From assembly GCF_900240275.1 (NCBI RefSeq), contig NZ_LT964761.1:1513389-1577388 (forward strand): a stretch of DNA of 64,000 bases, read 5' to 3'. Each line of letters opens with the position of its first letter. Within the stretch, counting starts at the first letter, position 1. Source of the stretch: [Lactobacillus] timonensis (GTDB taxonomy: Bacteria; Bacillota; Bacilli; Lactobacillales; Lactobacillaceae). A model generated the notes under the pieces. The model was given only the letters and a program-made list of their open reading frames with translations, ran no database searches and had not been told where the DNA came from. A program made the translations under genes and the position numbers. Of the stretch, positions 46,424 to 63,431 are shown piece by piece.

Positions 46424-46957
46424 ATGTCTAAATATTCATATCAATTTAAAGTTAGAGCAGTTCAAGACTACTTGAACAAAAGTCATGACTATTCATTAGT
46501 TTGTCAGAAATATGGCATTTCTTCCAACCATAGCTTAATGGCATGGGTACAGGATGTTCAAGCATGTGGTTATGAGAGTTTGGCTCCCAAGAGGAGCCAT
46601 CGTATTTATTCACTTGATTATAAACTTCAGGTAATCACTTACTACCGTACTCACGAGTTAAGCATAGATAAAGTAGCTGCGAAATTTAATTTGAATCGCA
46701 CACAAGTTTATTCATGGTATCGTAAATATAAAAATGAAGGGATCGTCGGCCTTCGGTCAAAGCCTAAGGGTCGACCAGCTAAAACTATGAACAAACATAA
46801 AACGATTAACAAATATAAAATCAAGCCTACTAAAGAAGAACAATATAGGCAAAAAATTGCCGATCTGGAAGCTAAGATCGCCGATCAAGAAATGGAGATC
46901 GACATCTTAAAAAAATTACAAGCCCTAAGACAGCAGCGCGGAAAGAACAAGCACTAG
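46424..46957 (+). CDS. IS3-family transposase OrfA
   Basis: The 177-residue protein has two helix-turn-helix parts (residues 1-60, QDYLNKSHDYSLVCQKYGIS, and 65-115, YYRTHELSIDKVAAKFNLN) and a C-terminal coiled coil (QKIADLEAKIADQEMEIDIL). It binds the element ends. An A7 run at 46909-46915 near the end allows a -1 frameshift that fuses it to OrfB, giving the active transposase. Confidence 0.93.
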   Translation: MSKYSYQFKVRAVQDYLNKSHDYSLVCQKYGISSNHSLMAWVQDVQACGYESLAPKRSHRIYSLDYKLQVITYYRTHELSIDKVAAKFNLNRTQVYSWYRKYKNEGIVGLRSKPKGRPAKTMNKHKTINKYKIKPTKEEQYRQKIADLEAKIADQEMEIDILKKLQALRQQRGKNKH

Positions 46958-46995
46958 CGATCCAAGATCTTAGGGCTAAGTACCCATTATCTAAG

Positions 46996-47802
46996 TTGTT
47001 AACATATTTTGGTATTCCACGATCCACCTTCTATGAACGTCTTAAAGCCGCAAAGCGTATCGATAAGTATCATCAGGTAAAGCAGGAAATTGCGAAGCAA
47101 TTTAAACGTAGTCAGGAAACCTACGGTTATCGCCGAATTTGGTATTGTCTCATCAAGAAAGGCTTCACATATTGTCAAGAAACAGTGCGTCGATTAATGA
47201 CTAGCATGGGATTAAAGGTAACTGTGTACTCAGCCAAGAGTCACTATCATTCATATCGTGGTCATGTGGGCAAGGTTGCCCCTAATTACTTACATCAGCA
47301 ATTTAATGCACAAAAAGCATATCAAGTTCTACATACAGATATCACACAAATTTCTATTAATGAACAGGTCAAAGGCTATTTATCACCAGTCATTGATGAG
47401 GCCAGTGGTGCCGTGGTCGCTTACGCGACCTCAACTCATCCTAATATGAAATTAGTTAGCACTATGTTGGCAAGTTTATTTAATAAACTGCCACAACGTA
47501 GTAACTCCATCATGCATTCAGATCAAGGATGGCAGTATCAACACCACTTGTATCAAATTTTATTACGTCAACACGGAATTACTCAGTCGATGTCCCGTAA
47601 AGGAAATTGCTTAGATAACTCACCAGCCGAAAGCTTTTTTAACTTGAAACGTGAGTGTTTGAATCGGATAAAGATCACTTCATTTCAGCAATTTAAAACT
47701 GTCATTGAGCAATACATCTATTGGTACAACAACGTACGAATTTCAGCAAATAAAAAAGGAATGACACCGAATCAATATATTCGATATCATTCCAATCTTT
47801 AA
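46996..47802 (+). CDS. IS3-family transposase OrfB (DDE domain)
   Basis: The 268 residues from the first ATG hold the rve-type catalytic core: LHTDITQI (first Asp), MHSDQGWQYQH (second Asp) and NSPAESFFNLKRE (Glu). The open frame extends upstream to about 46910 (through ARKEQALAIQDLRAKYPLS), so the natural product is the OrfAB fusion made by -1 frameshifting at the A7 run. The frame is intact, so the element could be active. Confidence 0.93.
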   Translation: MLTYFGIPRSTFYERLKAAKRIDKYHQVKQEIAKQFKRSQETYGYRRIWYCLIKKGFTYCQETVRRLMTSMGLKVTVYSAKSHYHSYRGHVGKVAPNYLHQQFNAQKAYQVLHTDITQISINEQVKGYLSPVIDEASGAVVAYATSTHPNMKLVSTMLASLFNKLPQRSNSIMHSDQGWQYQHHLYQILLRQHGITQSMSRKGNCLDNSPAESFFNLKRECLNRIKITSFQQFKTVIEQYIYWYNNVRISANKKGMTPNQYIRYHSNL

Positions 47803-56171: not shown

Positions 56172-56198
56172 AAAAAACCCAGGCGAACCACTCGCCTG
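56172..56198 (-). terminator. Terminator of the Ntn/AAA operon
   Basis: On the minus strand CAGGCGA pairs perfectly with TCGCCTG around a 5-base loop, followed by GGTTTTTTATTA. It lies 14 bases after the AAA gene stop. Confidence 0.9.
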
Positions 56199-56211
56199 AG
56201 ATGATCGTCAT

Positions 56212-58101
56212 TTACTTTAATTCATCGCCATTTAATAACGGAAGTGTTGAATCACTACCTAACGAAAAATCATGCCATAAGTCTTTAGGAATTTCCCCCT
56301 GTGAAAGTGATTCATTGCCTTGTTTGGCGTTATGATCATCATGCACAGAACCACCAAAAGCTTTTTGAATATCGTCAGACCAAATCTCATCTAACGGGTG
56401 CTCCTCATTTTGCCCGGTATCAACCGCTATTTGACGCAGCAACTGATCGTTACGGTTTCTGATCCAGCGACCATTACTGTGGTCATTGCTACTTTGATAC
56501 TGCTCGCTTACCAACTGCTCGTAGAGTTTCTCCGTTCTCGGCGAATCGAAATGCATTTGTTGCTGTTGCAGCTGCAAGCGGCCAATAGCGATGATTTCAT
56601 CAACACTATAATCATCAAACGTGAAAACATTGGGAACCCGTGAAGACATCCCTGGGTTCTGCTGTAATAGCTTTTTCATATCCTCAGTATAGCCAGCAAA
56701 GATGATCATAAGTTCTTCTCGGTGGTCTTCCATATACTTCATGATGGTATCAAGCGCTTCACGACCAAAGGTGTCATCGTTTCCATGCACCAGGTCGTAA
56801 GCTTCGTCAATAAACAGCATCCCCCCGGTAGCTTCTTCGAGGACCTTCCGGGTTTGTTTGGCAGTCTGGCCAACGTAACCAGCGACTAGCTGTGTGCGAT
56901 CAACTTCAACATACTTATCAGTTGGCAAAATTCCTTCTTCAAACATAATCTTGCCGACCAGCCGAGCGACCGTTGTCTTACCGGTCCCTGGGTTACCCTC
57001 AAAAAGTGAATGAAAAGAACTCGACACTGTCTTCATTCCGTGCTCCTGCCGACGCTTATTCATTAACGCCATCTGAATAAAGGTATTCACCTGTTCCTTT
57101 ACCCGGGTTAAGCCAATGAGTTGCTTCAGTTTCTTCAGGGCAGCGTGATCATTAGTCCTAACAGCTGATGACTGGGAAGTCAATGAACCCTCTTCACCTG
57201 CCAGAGAATTGCTGCCGCGCTGGACATTTCCAGTTACCTGGCAATTCTTCACTGATACCTGACTGTCCACCGCTTCAATCCATGGCTGATAGTTAAGTCT
57301 CTTTTCAGCTAGCGAACCAGTTAATTGTGAGTGATCGACGACCAGCGGCGTAATTGACTTTGGCAATGTTACCGGGAAATGCAAATTATCCGCAATCATT
57401 CTTGAGTTTAGCAGGTAACAAAGACATCGTTTTGTAGACAAACGATCTTGATGATTATCTGCTACTTGATAAGGCAGATAATGTTGAGTCTCATGCACGG
57501 AAAAACTAAGGTTTTGACTAACAATATTCCACTCGCCAGCAACGGACAGAGTGCCCACTTCAACTTGGTCCAGTACAAGGTTGCCACTACTTCCCTTGGG
57601 CAAATTGATAATCATTAGGTTACTTTGGCGAATAACTCCCGTAACGTCAGTGGCCATTTTAATGGCACCACCAAAATCACGGTAAAAAACTGTCGAAGAT
57701 TTCATCACAAGGTTAGCACCCTGGTCACAGCCTATAGCCGTCTGCTCCAGCGGACCGGTTAGCGAATCAGGGTCTCTAATAAAAGTAACATGATCAACCG
57801 TTGCCGTTGCTCCTTTTAAGACACTGACGTTAATTTGACGGTTATTAACCATCACCAAGTTTGTCAACTTCAAACTAGTTTCAGTCCCCAGCTCACCAAT
57901 AAGATAAACGTTGTCATCGTCATTATCGTTAGGATTATCGTCGGCGATACCTGTGATACTGCCGTTAAATGTGTAAACCGTCTTTTCTGAATCTGGATGG
58001 GGAACATTATAAAATCCCGGGGCCAAATTAATCTCGCCCGTTCCCCGGGCAAAGGCAGCCTCGAAGTCTGGTTGGTTATCAATTACATTTTTATCGACCA
58101 T
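56212..58101 (-). CDS. Beta-helix-like domain fused to a CbbX/SpoVK-type AAA+ ATPase
   Basis: The 629-residue protein starts like a pectate-lyase-type beta-helix (FEAAFARGTGEINLAPGFY), and residues about 30-290 are a series of short hydrophobic strands such as LTNLVMVNNRQINVSVLKG. Residues about 325-580 are a CbbX/SpoVK/EccA-type AAA+ domain: EGNPGTGKTTVARLV (Walker A, near 368), GGMLFIDEAYDL (Walker B), IIFAGYTEDM (sensor 1) and NPGMSSRVPNVFTF (arginine finger). CbbX-type ATPases remodel other proteins. The gene follows the second Ntn-type gene by 12 bases (ribosome site AGGAGG), so it probably supplies the ATP-driven part of a complex with those proteins. Confidence 0.85.
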   Translation of the reverse strand: MVDKNVIDNQPDFEAAFARGTGEINLAPGFYNVPHPDSEKTVYTFNGSITGIADDNPNDNDDDNVYLIGELGTETSLKLTNLVMVNNRQINVSVLKGATATVDHVTFIRDPDSLTGPLEQTAIGCDQGANLVMKSSTVFYRDFGGAIKMATDVTGVIRQSNLMIINLPKGSSGNLVLDQVEVGTLSVAGEWNIVSQNLSFSVHETQHYLPYQVADNHQDRLSTKRCLCYLLNSRMIADNLHFPVTLPKSITPLVVDHSQLTGSLAEKRLNYQPWIEAVDSQVSVKNCQVTGNVQRGSNSLAGEEGSLTSQSSAVRTNDHAALKKLKQLIGLTRVKEQVNTFIQMALMNKRRQEHGMKTVSSSFHSLFEGNPGTGKTTVARLVGKIMFEEGILPTDKYVEVDRTQLVAGYVGQTAKQTRKVLEEATGGMLFIDEAYDLVHGNDDTFGREALDTIMKYMEDHREELMIIFAGYTEDMKKLLQQNPGMSSRVPNVFTFDDYSVDEIIAIGRLQLQQQQMHFDSPRTEKLYEQLVSEQYQSSNDHSNGRWIRNRNDQLLRQIAVDTGQNEEHPLDEIWSDDIQKAFGGSVHDDHNAKQGNESLSQGEIPKDLWHDFSLGSDSTLPLLNGDELK

Positions 58102-58113
58102 CCATCATACCTC

Positions 58114-59427
58114 CTACATCCCGTGCTGTAATCGCAGCTGCCAGCCAAGATTTTCCCGGCTATTGGGATCAAAATACTGCTTCTTTTGGATCCAAACGGG
58201 ACCATCATTGGGTGTGATGGCCAAAACATCAATTGGTCCACCAACAGTCGCAAAGTGATCACCGTTATACTGGCGTTCAAAACTTGTCACCTTAATCATA
58301 GTCTCAGCAATCTCTGCCAGTTCAGGAATGTTTAACATGGCAATTTCGGATTCAAAGGGGGCCCCGTAAGTGTTGTAAAAGTATTCAGCTAGTTGCTGGT
58401 TAATTTGATTTTTCACATCAACAGGTAAATCAGTTTTATGCATGACGGTGTCCGTCAATTGACCATAAATATCATCACTGACACCAAAACGAAGAGTATT
58501 AGCTACGTCAGTTTGTGCGAATGGCAGAAAAAGGTTCCTAATTGGCACCCCCACCTGGTTAAGCTGTCCAATCTGGTCAATTTTTTCCCGCTTAAATACA
58601 GGATGAGAGCCAACACTGCCATACAAATGAAGCTGCTCAACTACTGGACAGTCATCATCTTGACCGTAACCAGCAATTACGATGCCTGATTCACCATTCC
58701 CCTTCCACTGCCCAGTACTGAGGCCGGCGAAGATGATGATATAGATAGCATGCAACCAAATTCCCTGCAATTGCTCATCAAAGAGGTTATGATAATTGTT
58801 ATCACCATTCAATTTTAAGCCAACTTGTTGAGCCTGCTCTTTCATCATTTTAACAACCAGCCCTTCCCGATCGGGATGAGCTGGGTCAACTGTCAACAGC
58901 AACTGCTGATAATCAGTAATAAACTGATGCTCAGAGTATCCGTTAGTGGCCAATTGATGATTAGCCGCTTTTGCATAGTTCTTGGCAGAATTCGTCAAAC
59001 TCTGTTTAATAAACAAGGCAACTTCATCACTATTACGGTCTTGATATTGAAAATCTTGGCAAAGCGTATAAGTTAGCGATGAAACAACCCGGTTCACTGT
59101 TGAGCGTTGATCAGTCACCGGTAAATTCACCAAAGGCTCGTTCACCAAGTAATGGAGAAATGCTTCTTGATAGTCGCTGAGGTGGGACAGCCTTTGGCTA
59201 CCAACTTGTTGCCGGTAGTGTTGAACCAACACGCTCCAGGGAGTTCCTTCGAATGAAGCATTGCCATACATCATCAGACCAACATAGTGCTGCCAATCCA
59301 ATGTATATAGTTTCTGGGCTGAATCATAGATTGCTTGAACCTGACCGGTATAATCCGTCTCACTCACGGCACTATCTGCCGCCAGCACAATCCCAGCTTG
59401 GTTGCCGATTCCGATCTCTGCAGTCAT
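58114..59427 (-). CDS. Proteasome-like Ntn-hydrolase protein, catalytic triad present
   Basis: The first 60 residues read like a 20S proteasome beta subunit: TAEIGIGNQAGIVLAADSAV, then QKLYTLDWQHYVGLMMYG. If the initiator Met is removed, Thr is residue 1, Asp of AADS is residue 17 and Lys of QKLY is residue 38 (proteasome Lys33 plus a 5-residue insertion), the classic triad. Further strands include SGIVIAGYGQDDD and VGGPIDVLAITPNDGPVW near the C-terminus. At 437 residues it is twice the size of HslV or a proteasome subunit, with an inserted helical region. The start overlaps the previous gene (ATGA), after GGGAGGAG. Protease or other Ntn activity is inferred. Confidence 0.72.
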   Translation of the reverse strand: MTAEIGIGNQAGIVLAADSAVSETDYTGQVQAIYDSAQKLYTLDWQHYVGLMMYGNASFEGTPWSVLVQHYRQQVGSQRLSHLSDYQEAFLHYLVNEPLVNLPVTDQRSTVNRVVSSLTYTLCQDFQYQDRNSDEVALFIKQSLTNSAKNYAKAANHQLATNGYSEHQFITDYQQLLLTVDPAHPDREGLVVKMMKEQAQQVGLKLNGDNNYHNLFDEQLQGIWLHAIYIIIFAGLSTGQWKGNGESGIVIAGYGQDDDCPVVEQLHLYGSVGSHPVFKREKIDQIGQLNQVGVPIRNLFLPFAQTDVANTLRFGVSDDIYGQLTDTVMHKTDLPVDVKNQINQQLAEYFYNTYGAPFESEIAMLNIPELAEIAETMIKVTSFERQYNGDHFATVGGPIDVLAITPNDGPVWIQKKQYFDPNSRENLGWQLRLQHGM

Positions 59428-60653
59428 TGCTTCGCTCCTCCCTCATTTAATGCAGCCTGACGATAAACCCACACCGGTCCATCTTGAAAAGTAATCGTCA
59501 TCGTCTCAATATCGCCACCTACTCCTGCGTTGCGGAATGAGTAACGTGCGACAAAGCTATTTGCTTCTACCATTGTTCTTGACATCTGCGCTAATTCAGC
59601 TGGGCTGAGATTAACAATCGTTTGCCTAATGCCAGCGGTATGATTGTCCATCGCCTGCCTGACAGTTCTGAGTACCCGTTGCTGGTCGGTTAACTGCATT
59701 CCCTTGTCAGCAATAATTCGGGCAATTTGTTGAAATGACACCTCGGCCATCCCTTGTTGCAGTAATTCAGCACCAACCGATTGGCGGGTATAAGTCGAAA
59801 CGGCTTTAAACAGCTGATTATGATCCTGATCAATTCGTTCAACTTCACCAGTTTTTGCCAATAGCCTTCCCAAAAAGCCATAAAGGTTAACGAGCTGGCA
59901 ACTACCAAATGCTTCACCTCCGCCAAGGCCAACGAAGTAAATAGAAGCATAGTTTTGCCTAATATCAGTGGTTAAGATGGTGCGAATAGCCTCAAACAGG
60001 CGTGGATAAATACTCGAGAAGACACTTCTCTGACCCTGGGCAGACTCCTGGCTTGGCATTAGCAATTGCTTGGCAAAGACCCCACCATTGGTGTTGTTGC
60101 CATAACTAGCATATTCTTTCACCCATTCGTTAATAATAGCCGAAATAGGTTGCTGATACTTTTCAATAAATTGCTGGCGGTCCAGTACAAAAATTGGCTG
60201 ATTCTGTCTACTCTGCTGCCATTGCTGACAAATCTTATCCACCGCCTGGTTAATAACTGCTTCAAAAGATTGCTGCTCGCGGCTGGCCTGTTGCAGCTGC
60301 ATATAGTTATTAAACAAGTTTTCTAAGATTAATCGCACATTGTCACGCAGATACCACTGTTCCCCTAGCCCGCTCTGTTTGCTATTAAGAAAGGCAATAA
60401 AAGAAGACGAATAATCAGTTAGTTTGTTTAATGGCTGTGTCCCTAACTGATCCGCAAAACGCTGAATCAGTAGCTCGACGGGGATGTTCATAAACTTATC
60501 AATTCCTGTCGACACAGCAACCACCTTATGCTTCCTACCAAGTGGGAACAGTCTGTTAATTCCGCGATATTCTTCCCCGCTAGTGCTTGCTTCCATTGTA
60601 TCCATTGAAACAGCGATTCCCCGCTGATTCGCTAAAATAAAACCAGATGCCAT
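59424..60653 (-). CDS. Proteasome-like Ntn-hydrolase paralogue, catalytic residues altered
   Basis: The 409-residue protein is a clear paralogue of the next gene product. The N-terminus ASGFILANQRGIAVSMDT matches strand by strand; VELLIQRFADQLGTQPLNKL parallels VLVQHYRQQVGSQRLSHL, and VGGDIETMTITFQDGPVW near the end parallels VGGPIDVLAITPNDGPVW. But after Met removal residue 1 is Ala (Ser is second) and the Lys33 position is Arg (INRLFPLG), so it is probably inactive. It may be a structural partner, like alpha subunits in the 20S proteasome. AAAAGGGGGAAATT precedes the ATG. Confidence 0.7.
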   Translation of the reverse strand: MASGFILANQRGIAVSMDTMEASTSGEEYRGINRLFPLGRKHKVVAVSTGIDKFMNIPVELLIQRFADQLGTQPLNKLTDYSSSFIAFLNSKQSGLGEQWYLRDNVRLILENLFNNYMQLQQASREQQSFEAVINQAVDKICQQWQQSRQNQPIFVLDRQQFIEKYQQPISAIINEWVKEYASYGNNTNGGVFAKQLLMPSQESAQGQRSVFSSIYPRLFEAIRTILTTDIRQNYASIYFVGLGGGEAFGSCQLVNLYGFLGRLLAKTGEVERIDQDHNQLFKAVSTYTRQSVGAELLQQGMAEVSFQQIARIIADKGMQLTDQQRVLRTVRQAMDNHTAGIRQTIVNLSPAELAQMSRTMVEANSFVARYSFRNAGVGGDIETMTITFQDGPVWVYRQAALNEGGAKQ

Positions 60654-60709
60654 AATTTCCCCCTTTTAAACATTATTAGTTTACTACAGTTGCCAAGCCA
60701 AACAAGCGG

Positions 60710-61561
60710 TTACCGTTTAAACCAACCGAAAATGCCGCGATGACGTCGCTGTTCTACTGTTGCTGCAGTCAGCTTGGTAATGGCCTCGGTTAACTTGGCC
60801 TGGTTCTTAAGTTCCTGCTCATGGCGGGCATCTTGGCTAGTCTGGTAATGCTGAAGCAGCGTATCACTATTCAACCACTTATCGAAGTTCGCAACGTTGA
60901 CGATAAAGCCGGTACTAGTGTACTGGTAACTATTATGATATTTCCGTGGCAGATAGTAGAAATAGCGGTTCATCATCGAACCATTGTTGCGACTTGTCCG
61001 GTCCGACACCTTATTGAAAAGGTGCTTATTAATTTGGGCCATTAACTGGCCCTCTTGTTTGACAAAGGTAATGTCGGTGCCAACATCCGCCTGGTTGACC
61101 AACATTGTCCAGTCATTGCGGCCCATAGAAATTGAATAATCATAGTTATCCTGGAAATACTCTTCCACTTGGTCAAACATCTCAAACTGATTCAATGCCT
61201 TTTTAAGCACACTCTTAATTGGGAAGAGAAAGTCTTTTTCAACCTTTTGTTCGTCTTCGGTAGAAACGTTGGCAAACTCATAGTTTCTTTTACCAAAGAC
61301 ACCACCATCGAGAAAATTACCACTGCCATTCAGATGGGCCGCTAGCCGTTTGCCAAAGGAATCCTTACCGTTATCACTCAGCCCTAAAATGAGCGTCACC
61401 CGCGAATAGCGAGGCAATAAATACTTCTCAATAAAACTAACTGATGACAGAAACGAAACGCCGCGAAATTCAGTAGCCGTCTTTAGTCGTGTCTCGGTGT
61501 ATTCCCAAAAGTCAGCATTTTGGTGCAGTTGTTGTTGCGGGCGAGCAAGAATATATAACAT
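60710..61561 (-). CDS. Uncharacterised 283-residue protein of the Ntn/AAA operon
   Basis: I do not recognise this protein. It begins MLYILARPQQQLHQNADFWE, is predicted to be soluble and mostly mixed alpha/beta, and has LILGLSDNGKDSFGKRLAAH near residue 55, which resembles a P-loop but lacks the final Ser/Thr of the motif. The last third is helical, and the C-terminus, EQRRHRGIFGWFKR, is basic and aromatic like the tail of the PLD-AAA protein. ATG at 61561 follows GGAGGAG; a TTG at 61576 overlaps that site. It is the first gene of the operon, 56 bases before the Ntn paralogues. Confidence 0.7.
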   Translation of the reverse strand: MLYILARPQQQLHQNADFWEYTETRLKTATEFRGVSFLSSVSFIEKYLLPRYSRVTLILGLSDNGKDSFGKRLAAHLNGSGNFLDGGVFGKRNYEFANVSTEDEQKVEKDFLFPIKSVLKKALNQFEMFDQVEEYFQDNYDYSISMGRNDWTMLVNQADVGTDITFVKQEGQLMAQINKHLFNKVSDRTSRNNGSMMNRYFYYLPRKYHNSYQYTSTGFIVNVANFDKWLNSDTLLQHYQTSQDARHEQELKNQAKLTEAITKLTAATVEQRRHRGIFGWFKR

Positions 61562-62138: not shown

Positions 62139-62241
62139 TATAAAGCTTCCTTTCGTAATTGGACGACGTATAAAATGTCAATGATATTGTTGACAATTCA
62201 ACAATGTCACTCTAAGCAAATTGTTGTAAGTGCAATATTAT

Positions 62242-63431
62242 TTAATTTTCTATCCTCGCATGATGAAAAAACTCTCGGCGATCGGTGTGGAAGAACTGGG
62301 CGATTACTAATGCCAAAATAAGGATAGCAAAGCAGGTCAAAAAGCCGGCCTGGATCCCCTGTCGTGATGTCCCGAGATACACATGTTGACCATTGCCACA
62401 ACGAAGGCTGTCCCAAAGAGGTCCACTGCCAAACCATAAGTTACCATCCAGCGAATTGGAAAACGATCAAATAACTTACCGCTAACTGGTGAGAGAATCC
62501 CCGTAATCCCCGTGGACAAGGCTCCCGGTAAAATCACTAATCCAGAAATAAATGGGCTCTTTCACATGACGTTTTGTACCAGCAGCGATAATAAGATAGT
62601 TATTGCCATACATCGTTGATACCAGTAAGCAATTGACAATGACTGCCAAGGTAAATTGAGCATGGCGAAAGATCCGCAAGTTGACAAACGGATGATTACT
62701 GTGCCACTGCGCACCAACAAAAATAATTAAAAAAAGCAAACCAATGAAGAGAGCGCCAGCAACTGACCAACTGGCAAATGCCATCGTTCCAAACTCAGAA
62801 AACCCATTTAATAAAAATCAAAGGCTGAGACTACACGTGACTAACCCGCAGTAATTAAACTGCGGATGTTGCTTAGTCTGCAGGTGCGGCATAAAAATCA
62901 ATGACAATACCATGGTGAGGATGATAAACGGCAGGACAAGCAAAAACAGATACCGCCAGGAGAAAAAGTCTAAGATCAACCCTGCCACGGAGGGCCCAAT
63001 AATCGGTGAAAAATTGAATGCCAAACCAACTAGCCCCATCAATGCCCCCTGGTGACCGTCACTGGCAAACTCCATCACTAAGACATTAACAAGTGGCATC
63101 ATAATACCGGAACCCACTGCTCATACCATCCGTCCACAGACAATCAGCTGAAAGGTCGGTGCCATCGCACCCATAATTGTTCCCACACCGAAATTTGCCG
63201 TGAAACCGACAAACAGGTTTTTATATGAATACTTCTTAATGAGGTAAGCACTAACTGGTATCATCAAGGCATTCACCAGCATGTAACCGTTACTAACCCG
63301 TGCAGAGGATAAGTCAAACTGGCGTATTAACGTTGGTAAAGCGATATTCATCATCGTTGAACACATAATTCCAAAAATGTGCCAAGGATCATGATGCTTA
63401 ACACAAACTTTTGTTTTATTGTCACTATCAT
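62242..63431 (-). pseudogene. DHA2-type multidrug MFS transporter, decayed
   Basis: Pieces of a DHA2 (14-segment) efflux protein can be read in order but in different frames: IALPTLIRQFDLSSARVSNG, then GSGIMMPLVNVLVMEFASDG, then LPGALSTGITGILSPVSGKL. Defects include a frameshift in a T-run close to the start (about 63385), in-frame TGA codons at about 63121 and 62818, and further frameshifts near 62560 and 62400. Reading continues to a TAA at 62242. The gene is non-functional, but the sequence is still clearly recognisable, so the decay is fairly recent. Confidence 0.88.

Follow-up and report, generated by a model that had tools for sequence, protein, structure and literature searches.

Two kinds of AAA+-driven proteasome-type protease have been described, the 20S proteasome and HslUV. 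The chamber of the 20S proteasome is gated by its inactive subunits and supplied by an ATPase; an ATPase of the CbbX clade works by remodelling the particular enzyme to which it is dedicated. A survey in 2021 added 22 further proteasome homologues, and the parts of it available to us report no AAA+ partner for them (PMC8665760). According to the accessible part of a study of the SpoVK/CbbX/EccA clade of AAA+ proteins, its characterised members are dedicated chaperones and not protease partners, and the authors did not find evidence that the clade associates with peptidases (Delerue et al. 2023, PMC10659427). Here, we describe a locus that is an exception to both reports, as is a second one in genome G070, from another genus of the same family; these two loci join new proteasome homologues with AAA+ proteins of the SpoVK/CbbX/EccA clade. 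The locus lies in a 64,000-nucleotide stretch of [Lactobacillus] timonensis contig NZ_LT964761.1 (the window; genome G000, 1.68 Mb). It encodes two proteins of a proteasome-like N-terminal nucleophile (Ntn) hydrolase family, named NtnA and NtnB here, and an AAA+ protein. A limited literature search found no paper on this gene combination.

The list of open reading frames (ORFs) placed four genes on the minus strand across 61561-56212 (Table 1), just as a preliminary description of this DNA had them. That description took the four for a single operon because of close or overlapping starts and a terminator. For three of the genes this stands: NtnA, NtnB and the AAA+ gene (60653-56212) are tightly packed as one unit that ends in a terminator-like hairpin, with a 4-nt overlap between the NtnA and NtnB frames, a spacing of 12 nt from NtnB to the AAA+ gene and a 10-pair stem followed by a T run. 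The membership of gene 1 is uncertain, with a gap of 56 nt to NtnA that contains one weak promoter-like match (9/12). A second terminator-like hairpin follows the 3' end of the upstream GNAT gene, and the unit therefore begins inside the 61561-56212 stretch. Terminator-like sites in the region numbered 10, versus a shuffle mean of 6.0 (sd, 2.2); promoter-like matches numbered 17, with no excess over the shuffles (13.1; sd, 3.8).

The two Ntn proteins had been presented as large paralogues that both carry the N-terminal signature of proteasome beta subunits. By sequence comparison they are indeed paralogues (25% identity across NtnB residues 7-418; E = 1.1e-16). The signature is full in NtnB, where T2, after the Met, corresponds to Thr1, D18 to Asp17 and K39 to Lys33, all three being invariant in a 15-row family alignment. 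NtnA has the signature without the nucleophile: Ala occupies that position and Arg the Lys33-equivalent position, while the Asp17 equivalent is kept. In an 80-row alignment, the nucleophile position was T in 76 rows, S in 3 and A in 1, the A being that of NtnA. The Asp17 equivalent, 16 residues past it, was D in 80/80 rows, and the Lys33 equivalent (NtnB 39) was K in 79/80, with the single R again from NtnA. A wider redundant set of 236 hits yielded 226 pattern-recognised starts (T, 214; S, 4; A, 8), and all eight A's came from copies of NtnA; the 10 hits lacking a recognised start, including fragments and the Thr-less protein of G070, were omitted. NtnA is thus placed, by its residues, as probably a non-catalytic, inactive-looking subunit. 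It begins at the first strand (MASGFILANQ), without an alpha-type N-terminal helical extension.

Neither NtnA nor NtnB matched a Pfam family at an E value of <0.01 or an NCBIfam family at <0.1. PF00227 was reached by 7/80 family members (best E, 0.00024) and any other Pfam family by 1, and the window proteins fell short of PF00227. Both proteins matched phrog_5990, of unknown function (NtnB, 7e-64; NtnA, 2.7e-22), and NtnA had an additional 15-bit match to another phrog. In a PDB profile search, the three best matches were proteasome beta chains (whole-sequence E, 0.0059), with Thr1 falling on T2. In this alignment, GGMIDVAVITRKDGY of the beta chains falls on GGPIDVAVISKGDGF of the family, and a second colinear block lies near the C terminus. 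NtnB is a proteasome homologue, its Thr, Asp and Lys being shared by a family that counts hundreds of members. Of the structure predictions that the preliminary description called for, the AlphaFold2 model of NtnB, built from the 80-row alignment, was confident, with a mean predicted local distance difference test (pLDDT) score of 88.6 and a predicted template modelling (pTM) score of 0.87. The modelled strands at residues 4-56 are followed by helices H1 (64-75) and H2 (83-96) and then by a helical insertion (98-238); after it come four strands (247-304), four helices (306-387), two strands and a last helix. At 306-387 two helices would be expected versus the four predicted (the helix assignment is our own), and the order of strands and helices in the model is that expected of a proteasome homologue.

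The predicted insertions of NtnB lie after H1/H2 and around or between H3/H4, as in PMI-4, an uncharacterised group of proteasome homologues that bear several insertions each (Fuchs, Alva, Lupas 2021, PMC8665760). In the part of that survey at hand, insertions at both places are given for PMI-3 and PMI-4, and of these two PMI-4 alone is listed with phages and Firmicutes (PMC8665760). On account of the insertion pattern and the presence in phages and Firmicutes, we take the Ntn family to be very probably the published PMI-4 group. The Ntn family is not special to lactobacilli.

Residues 322-562 of the AAA+ protein matched SpoVK (TIGR02881; 1.6e-75), EccA (1.3e-59) and CbbX (3.2e-56). These NCBIfam matches place it, by sequence, in the SpoVK/EccA/CbbX clade, in agreement with its first designation as a CbbX-type ATPase; the scores lie below the curated equivalog cutoffs (253.5/422.95 bits for SpoVK, 190.7/459.25 for CbbX and 202.2/466.65 for EccA). 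The motifs GNPGTGKTT, LFIDEA, AGYT and GRWIRN were found, with Walker A and B intact and, in the AGYT motif, the GY in sensor 1 that the clade leads one to expect. A putative aromatic pore loop reads GYVG in the window protein and KWVG in that of G070 (our own assignment). The N-terminal 300 residues gave no Pfam or NCBIfam match up to an E value of 1. Residues 1-310 are a variable N-terminal region that, by analogy only, may be a beta-helix. Long N-terminal parts are also present in double-AAA+ relatives from Ligilactobacillus salivarius (L019), a viral contig (L238) and Streptomyces (L021), and for the Streptomyces genes the annotation reads right-handed beta-helix protein. The L. salivarius relative, with two SpoVK/CbbX-type AAA+ domains, is encoded on a megaplasmid. 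The L238 gene sits at the end of its contig, adjoining an ORF that looks integrase-like by eye, and its N-terminal part matched only itself among viral contigs. The Streptomyces gene adjoins genes for an S8 peptidase and EccCa.

The trio recurs in G070, on one strand of locus L022, so that the linkage of homologues with the AAA+ gene elsewhere, which the preliminary description had made a point to check, was found in a second genus. All five L022 genes either overlap the next one or lie 3 nt away from it (Table 1). The G070 AAA+ protein matched SpoVK (3.1e-53) and EccA (4.9e-53) and so belongs to the same clade. The catalytic positions are A/D/K in its Thr-less Ntn protein and T/D/K in its Thr Ntn protein. 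From cassette to cassette, the Thr-less proteins share 23% identity, the AAA+ proteins 26% and the Thr proteins 25%; because the cassettes are so far apart in sequence, the linkage has been kept. The order of the trio differs, being Thr-less, Thr, AAA+ in the window and Thr-less, AAA+, Thr in G070. In a 44-row tree, all four pair proteins fell to the same side of a branch (support, 88/96), subject to a long-branch warning. Gene 1 is absent from the G070 cassette and was therefore rejected as a proven core part. The two genes after the G070 cassette matched the PADLOC candidates PDC-M16A (2.2e-82) and PDC-M16B (2.4e-12), models of candidate status only, which the window locus does not match. 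These genes share an operon with the cassette, and their products are a helicase-like (SLFN-g3/RecD2-like) and a DUF7017 protein.

Two divergent loci that each combine an active/inactive Ntn pair with an ATPase of the same clade argue for one machine. We consider it probable that NtnA, NtnB and the AAA+ protein act as one complex, and fairly likely that the trio amounts to a catalytic Ntn protein, a Thr-less partner and a dedicated AAA+ protein working as one machine. NtnA and NtnB would assemble into a hetero-oligomer, with NtnA playing a structural or gating part like that of 20S alpha subunits. The N-terminal region of the AAA+ protein may recruit a narrow set of substrates, and the AAA+ ring, through its putative pore loop, would pull on either the substrate or the Ntn complex, thereby presenting the substrate to the Thr1 site or opening that site. 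As first proposed, the AAA+ protein may feed an Ntn chamber; we rate threading of substrates and activation of the Ntn complex in the manner of CbbX as about equally likely, and the chances that the output is hydrolytic (proteolytic) are even. Most likely, the genes would have been acquired horizontally and would serve an accessory function in conflicts with mobile elements. Such a small, laboratory-tractable system could be used to study how an active/inactive subunit pair and a motor get assembled anew, and it offers an inroad to the function of the large, often mobile and uncharacterised PMI-4 family.

The distribution of the family bears on this proposal. By tblastn, NtnB matched 10 records of plasmids and 13 of phages. 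With a 15-member profile, 481 relatives were found in 533 candidate stretches of one-genome-per-species contigs, where a scan with the single protein gave no match, and 158 were found in 184 candidate stretches of viral contigs; the best 80 of each were analysed, and archaeal stretches were among the best 80 of the 481. Almost all NtnB relatives examined are single genes without this AAA+ gene, many on phages, satellites and plasmids. Among 102 representative single Ntn genes, 57 had no codirectional neighbour within 150 bp, 42 had one upstream and 4 had one downstream (both in one case), and the largest neighbour family had 4 members. Single Ntn genes occupy cargo-like positions: close to the end of Streptococcus satellite phages (L006, L007 and L027); after the lysin gene, beside lysis genes or among structural genes of phages (L008, L009, L010 and L026); and, in L013, next to an ORF judged by eye to be an integrase. 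On Mesorhizobium and Rhizobium plasmids (L023, L024, L025 and L028), a single PMI-4-like Ntn gene occurs within a few kilobases of multiubiquitin and ThiF E1 genes in 4/4 rhizobial loci examined, of seven rhizobial matches, so that a proteasome homologue adjoins a ubiquitin-like operon of bacteria there. An E2 domain was found in L024, and a ClpP-like gene is also present in three Rhizobium loci; three of the rhizobial loci are closely alike and hence not independent. The mobile settings of the single relatives, the rhizobial multiubiquitin/ThiF loci and the PDC-M16 genes of G070 hint at a role in conflict or defence; the lack of a convincing PADLOC match for the window genes weighs against it.

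The unit itself is rare. Genome searches used overlapping sets and mixed queries and counted G000 wherever it was part of the sample; a match of any kind was obtained in 2/50 genomes of the genus, 2/396 of the family (3/378 at E values up to 0.01), 16/395 of the order, 10/398 of the class, 5/199 of the phylum and 1/26 of the genus of G070. An adjacent Ntn pair was present in G000 and G070 alone among the genomes searched. Another species of the genus (G032) has a 33-residue NtnA remnant (79% identity; L237:7945-8043); the rest of the unit was not found in the 16-kb stretch read, and the flanking genes of the window are not shared. G038 has the TPI-aldolase-PGM cluster next to which the unit lies in the window and does not have the unit; five further genomes have a TPI homologue, with the cluster not in the stretch read. 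Because of G038 and the rarity among searched genomes, the unit is accessory. Searches for more cassettes gave none. NtnA found 2 plasmid and 7 phage records, all among the NtnB matches. The G070 NtnB found 9 plasmid records, likewise all among the NtnB matches (no cassette in the 6/9 examined), and no viral contig. The N-terminal part of the G070 AAA+ protein had no plasmid match, and a two-row AAA+ profile matched 2/396 candidate stretches of viral contigs, neither with an Ntn gene in the stretch read. PDC-M16A was rejected as a guide to further cassettes, with matches in 3/149 genomes (E about 1e-21 to 1e-22) and no Ntn gene in the short stretch. Weak matches in G1272, G1252 and G1169 resemble other, shorter proteasome homologues, and this AAA+ gene is not nearby.

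Several observations weigh against a shared machine. The trio is known from two genomes only. Of 234 sources examined, 226 have an Ntn gene and 9 of these also have the AAA+ gene, all nine being views of G000 or G070. The other 217 show no such AAA+ gene within the fetched DNA; they hold 151 distinct Ntn sequences, some short views of G000/G070 included, and for 133 of them the DNA extends 2 kb or more to either side, which leaves room for a hidden neighbour in the remainder. A link of the whole Ntn family to this AAA+ protein was rejected, and the lone relatives evidently manage with no such ATPase next to them. The two Thr-less proteins are not joined to each other in the 44-row tree, and a common origin of the A/B split is therefore not demonstrated. 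Taken singly, neither aligned block of the PDB profile match reaches significance, and the next matches in that search are cullins and designed helical proteins (E, 0.010 to 0.013), which probably owe their place to the helical insertion. The docking-tail rule is HbYX, and no known docking tail was seen at the AAA+ C termini (NGDELK in the window and WQIGG in G070). The window genes have no convincing PADLOC model: NtnB and gene 1 gave no match, the AAA+ protein gave generic matches only (best, IetA; 35.8 bits; E, 1.5e-9) and NtnA gave a 17.2-bit match to JetC3 (E, 0.00021). Finally, insertions of the NtnB type may be incompatible with stacked rings, as the consulted portion of the survey has it (PMC8665760).

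These points feed into other explanations. The likeliest of them, though rather unlikely itself, is that the AAA+ protein is a CbbX-like chaperone that assembles or reactivates the Ntn enzyme; the latter would be no general protease but a hydrolase or ligase specific for a single target, with neither unfolding nor feeding involved. It would agree with the dedicated chaperones of the clade, for which no peptidase associations were found in the part of the source available (PMC10659427), with the ligase connectase and the non-ring forms that the wider family holds (PMC8665760, as far as accessible) and with the long insertions modelled in NtnB. However, both cassettes have the putative aromatic pore loop and full ATPase motifs, as in threading ATPases, and the 20S proteasome also has an inactive second subunit. 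It is unlikely that the AAA+ and Ntn genes are mere neighbours in a defence or mobile island, working apart, with the Ntn pair a duplication and NtnA decaying. The usually single and often mobile relatives, the NtnA remnant in G032 and the different order of the trio would fit such an island, but two divergent cassettes hold the same three gene kinds with ends overlapping or abutting, and both Thr-less frames are uninterrupted despite 23% identity and therefore look old and maintained.

Two further readings have even less in their favor. A type VII secretion-like apparatus with an EccA-type chaperone is very improbable: EccA is the second-best NCBIfam match of the AAA+ protein and the Streptomyces relative has EccCa and the S8 peptidase beside it, but secretion genes were found for 0/11 neighbouring proteins scanned, no genome-wide type VII search having been made in G000. 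That the locus is an ordinary HslUV or 20S variant is scarcely credible. The superfamily is shared, judging from the PDB profile matches, but the window proteins do not match PF00227, NtnA lacks the alpha-type extension and the AAA+ protein is nearest SpoVK/EccA/CbbX and not HslU, PAN or Mpa; HslUV or the 20S proteasome proper was rejected on the first and last of these grounds. PF00227 had no match in G000 at E values up to 0.001, hence no HslV-like gene by that model, whereas 10/14 control genomes matched.

Around the unit, gene 1 resembles, over residues 96-279, the C-terminal part of a PLD-like/ATPase protein of L. salivarius plasmids (37%, 202 residues) and, over residues 58-103, its P-loop region. 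Gene 1, which has matches in 10 plasmid records, looks like a shortened ATPase by these resemblances. The L. salivarius gene adjoins a Fic gene. A 780-aa window protein is a distant relative of the same plasmid protein (23%, 720 columns); its N-terminal part is PLD-like and it has an ATPase domain, each scoring below the Pfam cutoff. Gene 1 did not match this window protein. A membrane-transporter-like frame, recognised by eye, lies in several pieces across different ORFs. An IS3-type transposase pair about 8 kb from the unit sits in the lowest-GC 2-kb block of the window (0.37).

Table 1. Coordinates of the unit, the G070 cassette and flanking features (window positions unless L022 is given)
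Feature	Coordinates	Strand	Description
Gene 1	60710..61561	-	283 aa, counted from the ATG at 61561; ORF program start is a TTG further upstream
NtnA	59424..60653	-	409 aa, Thr-less paralogue of proteasome-like family; phrog_5990 match
NtnB	58114..59427	-	437 aa, proteasome-like Ntn hydrolase, two helical insertions predicted
AAA+ protein	56212..58101	-	629 aa, SpoVK/EccA/CbbX-clade domain at about 322-562
Terminator-like hairpin after AAA+ gene	56178..56200	-	10-pair stem and T run
Second terminator-like hairpin	61672-61646		3' of upstream GNAT gene
780-aa protein	53080-50738		PLD-like part and ATPase domain
Membrane-transporter-like frame	62207-63366		in several pieces, by eye
IS3-type transposase pair	46424-47802		HTH and rve domains
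G070 Thr-less Ntn	L022 12896-11862		same strand as AAA+ and Thr Ntn; overlaps AAA+ by 1 nt
G070 AAA+	L022 11862-10255		3 nt from Thr Ntn
G070 Thr Ntn	L022 10251-8956		third cassette gene
G070 670-aa helicase-like and 874-aa proteins	L022 4343-8963		downstream of Thr Ntn, same strand

Taken at its widest, and tentatively, the favored reading of a shared machine would make the trio a third AAA+-partnered proteasome-type machine, assembled separately from 20S-PAN/Mpa and HslUV. In it, the catalytic subunit would be of PMI-4 type, a dead paralogue would have taken over an alpha-like role and the ATPase would have been drawn from the SpoVK/CbbX/EccA clade, the whole serving as a mobile conflict system in lactobacilli. 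Like the 20S proteasome with PAN or Mpa, the locus combines active and inactive homologous subunits with an AAA+ ATPase, but the Ntn group and the AAA+ clade are others, and the alpha-type N-terminal extension and a known docking tail are both missing from the window proteins. With HslUV it shares a bacterial Ntn hydrolase gene and an AAA+ gene, whereas HslU belongs to another AAA+ clade and HslV rings are homo-oligomeric and compact (PMC8665760, in the part available). The SpoVK/CbbX/EccA chaperones have the same AAA+ domain clade and a variable N-terminal region, a beta-helix being mentioned for EccA, and differ in that peptidase associations were not found in the clade (PMC10659427, within the part available). 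PMI-4 and the family described here have in common the Thr1/Asp17/Lys33 core, the insertions after H1/H2 and between H3/H4 and the spread across Firmicutes, other phyla, archaea and phages. No co-occurring AAA+ interactor is reported in the accessible sections of the PMI-4 survey (PMC8665760), while the window locus has both a Thr-less paralogue and an AAA+ gene.

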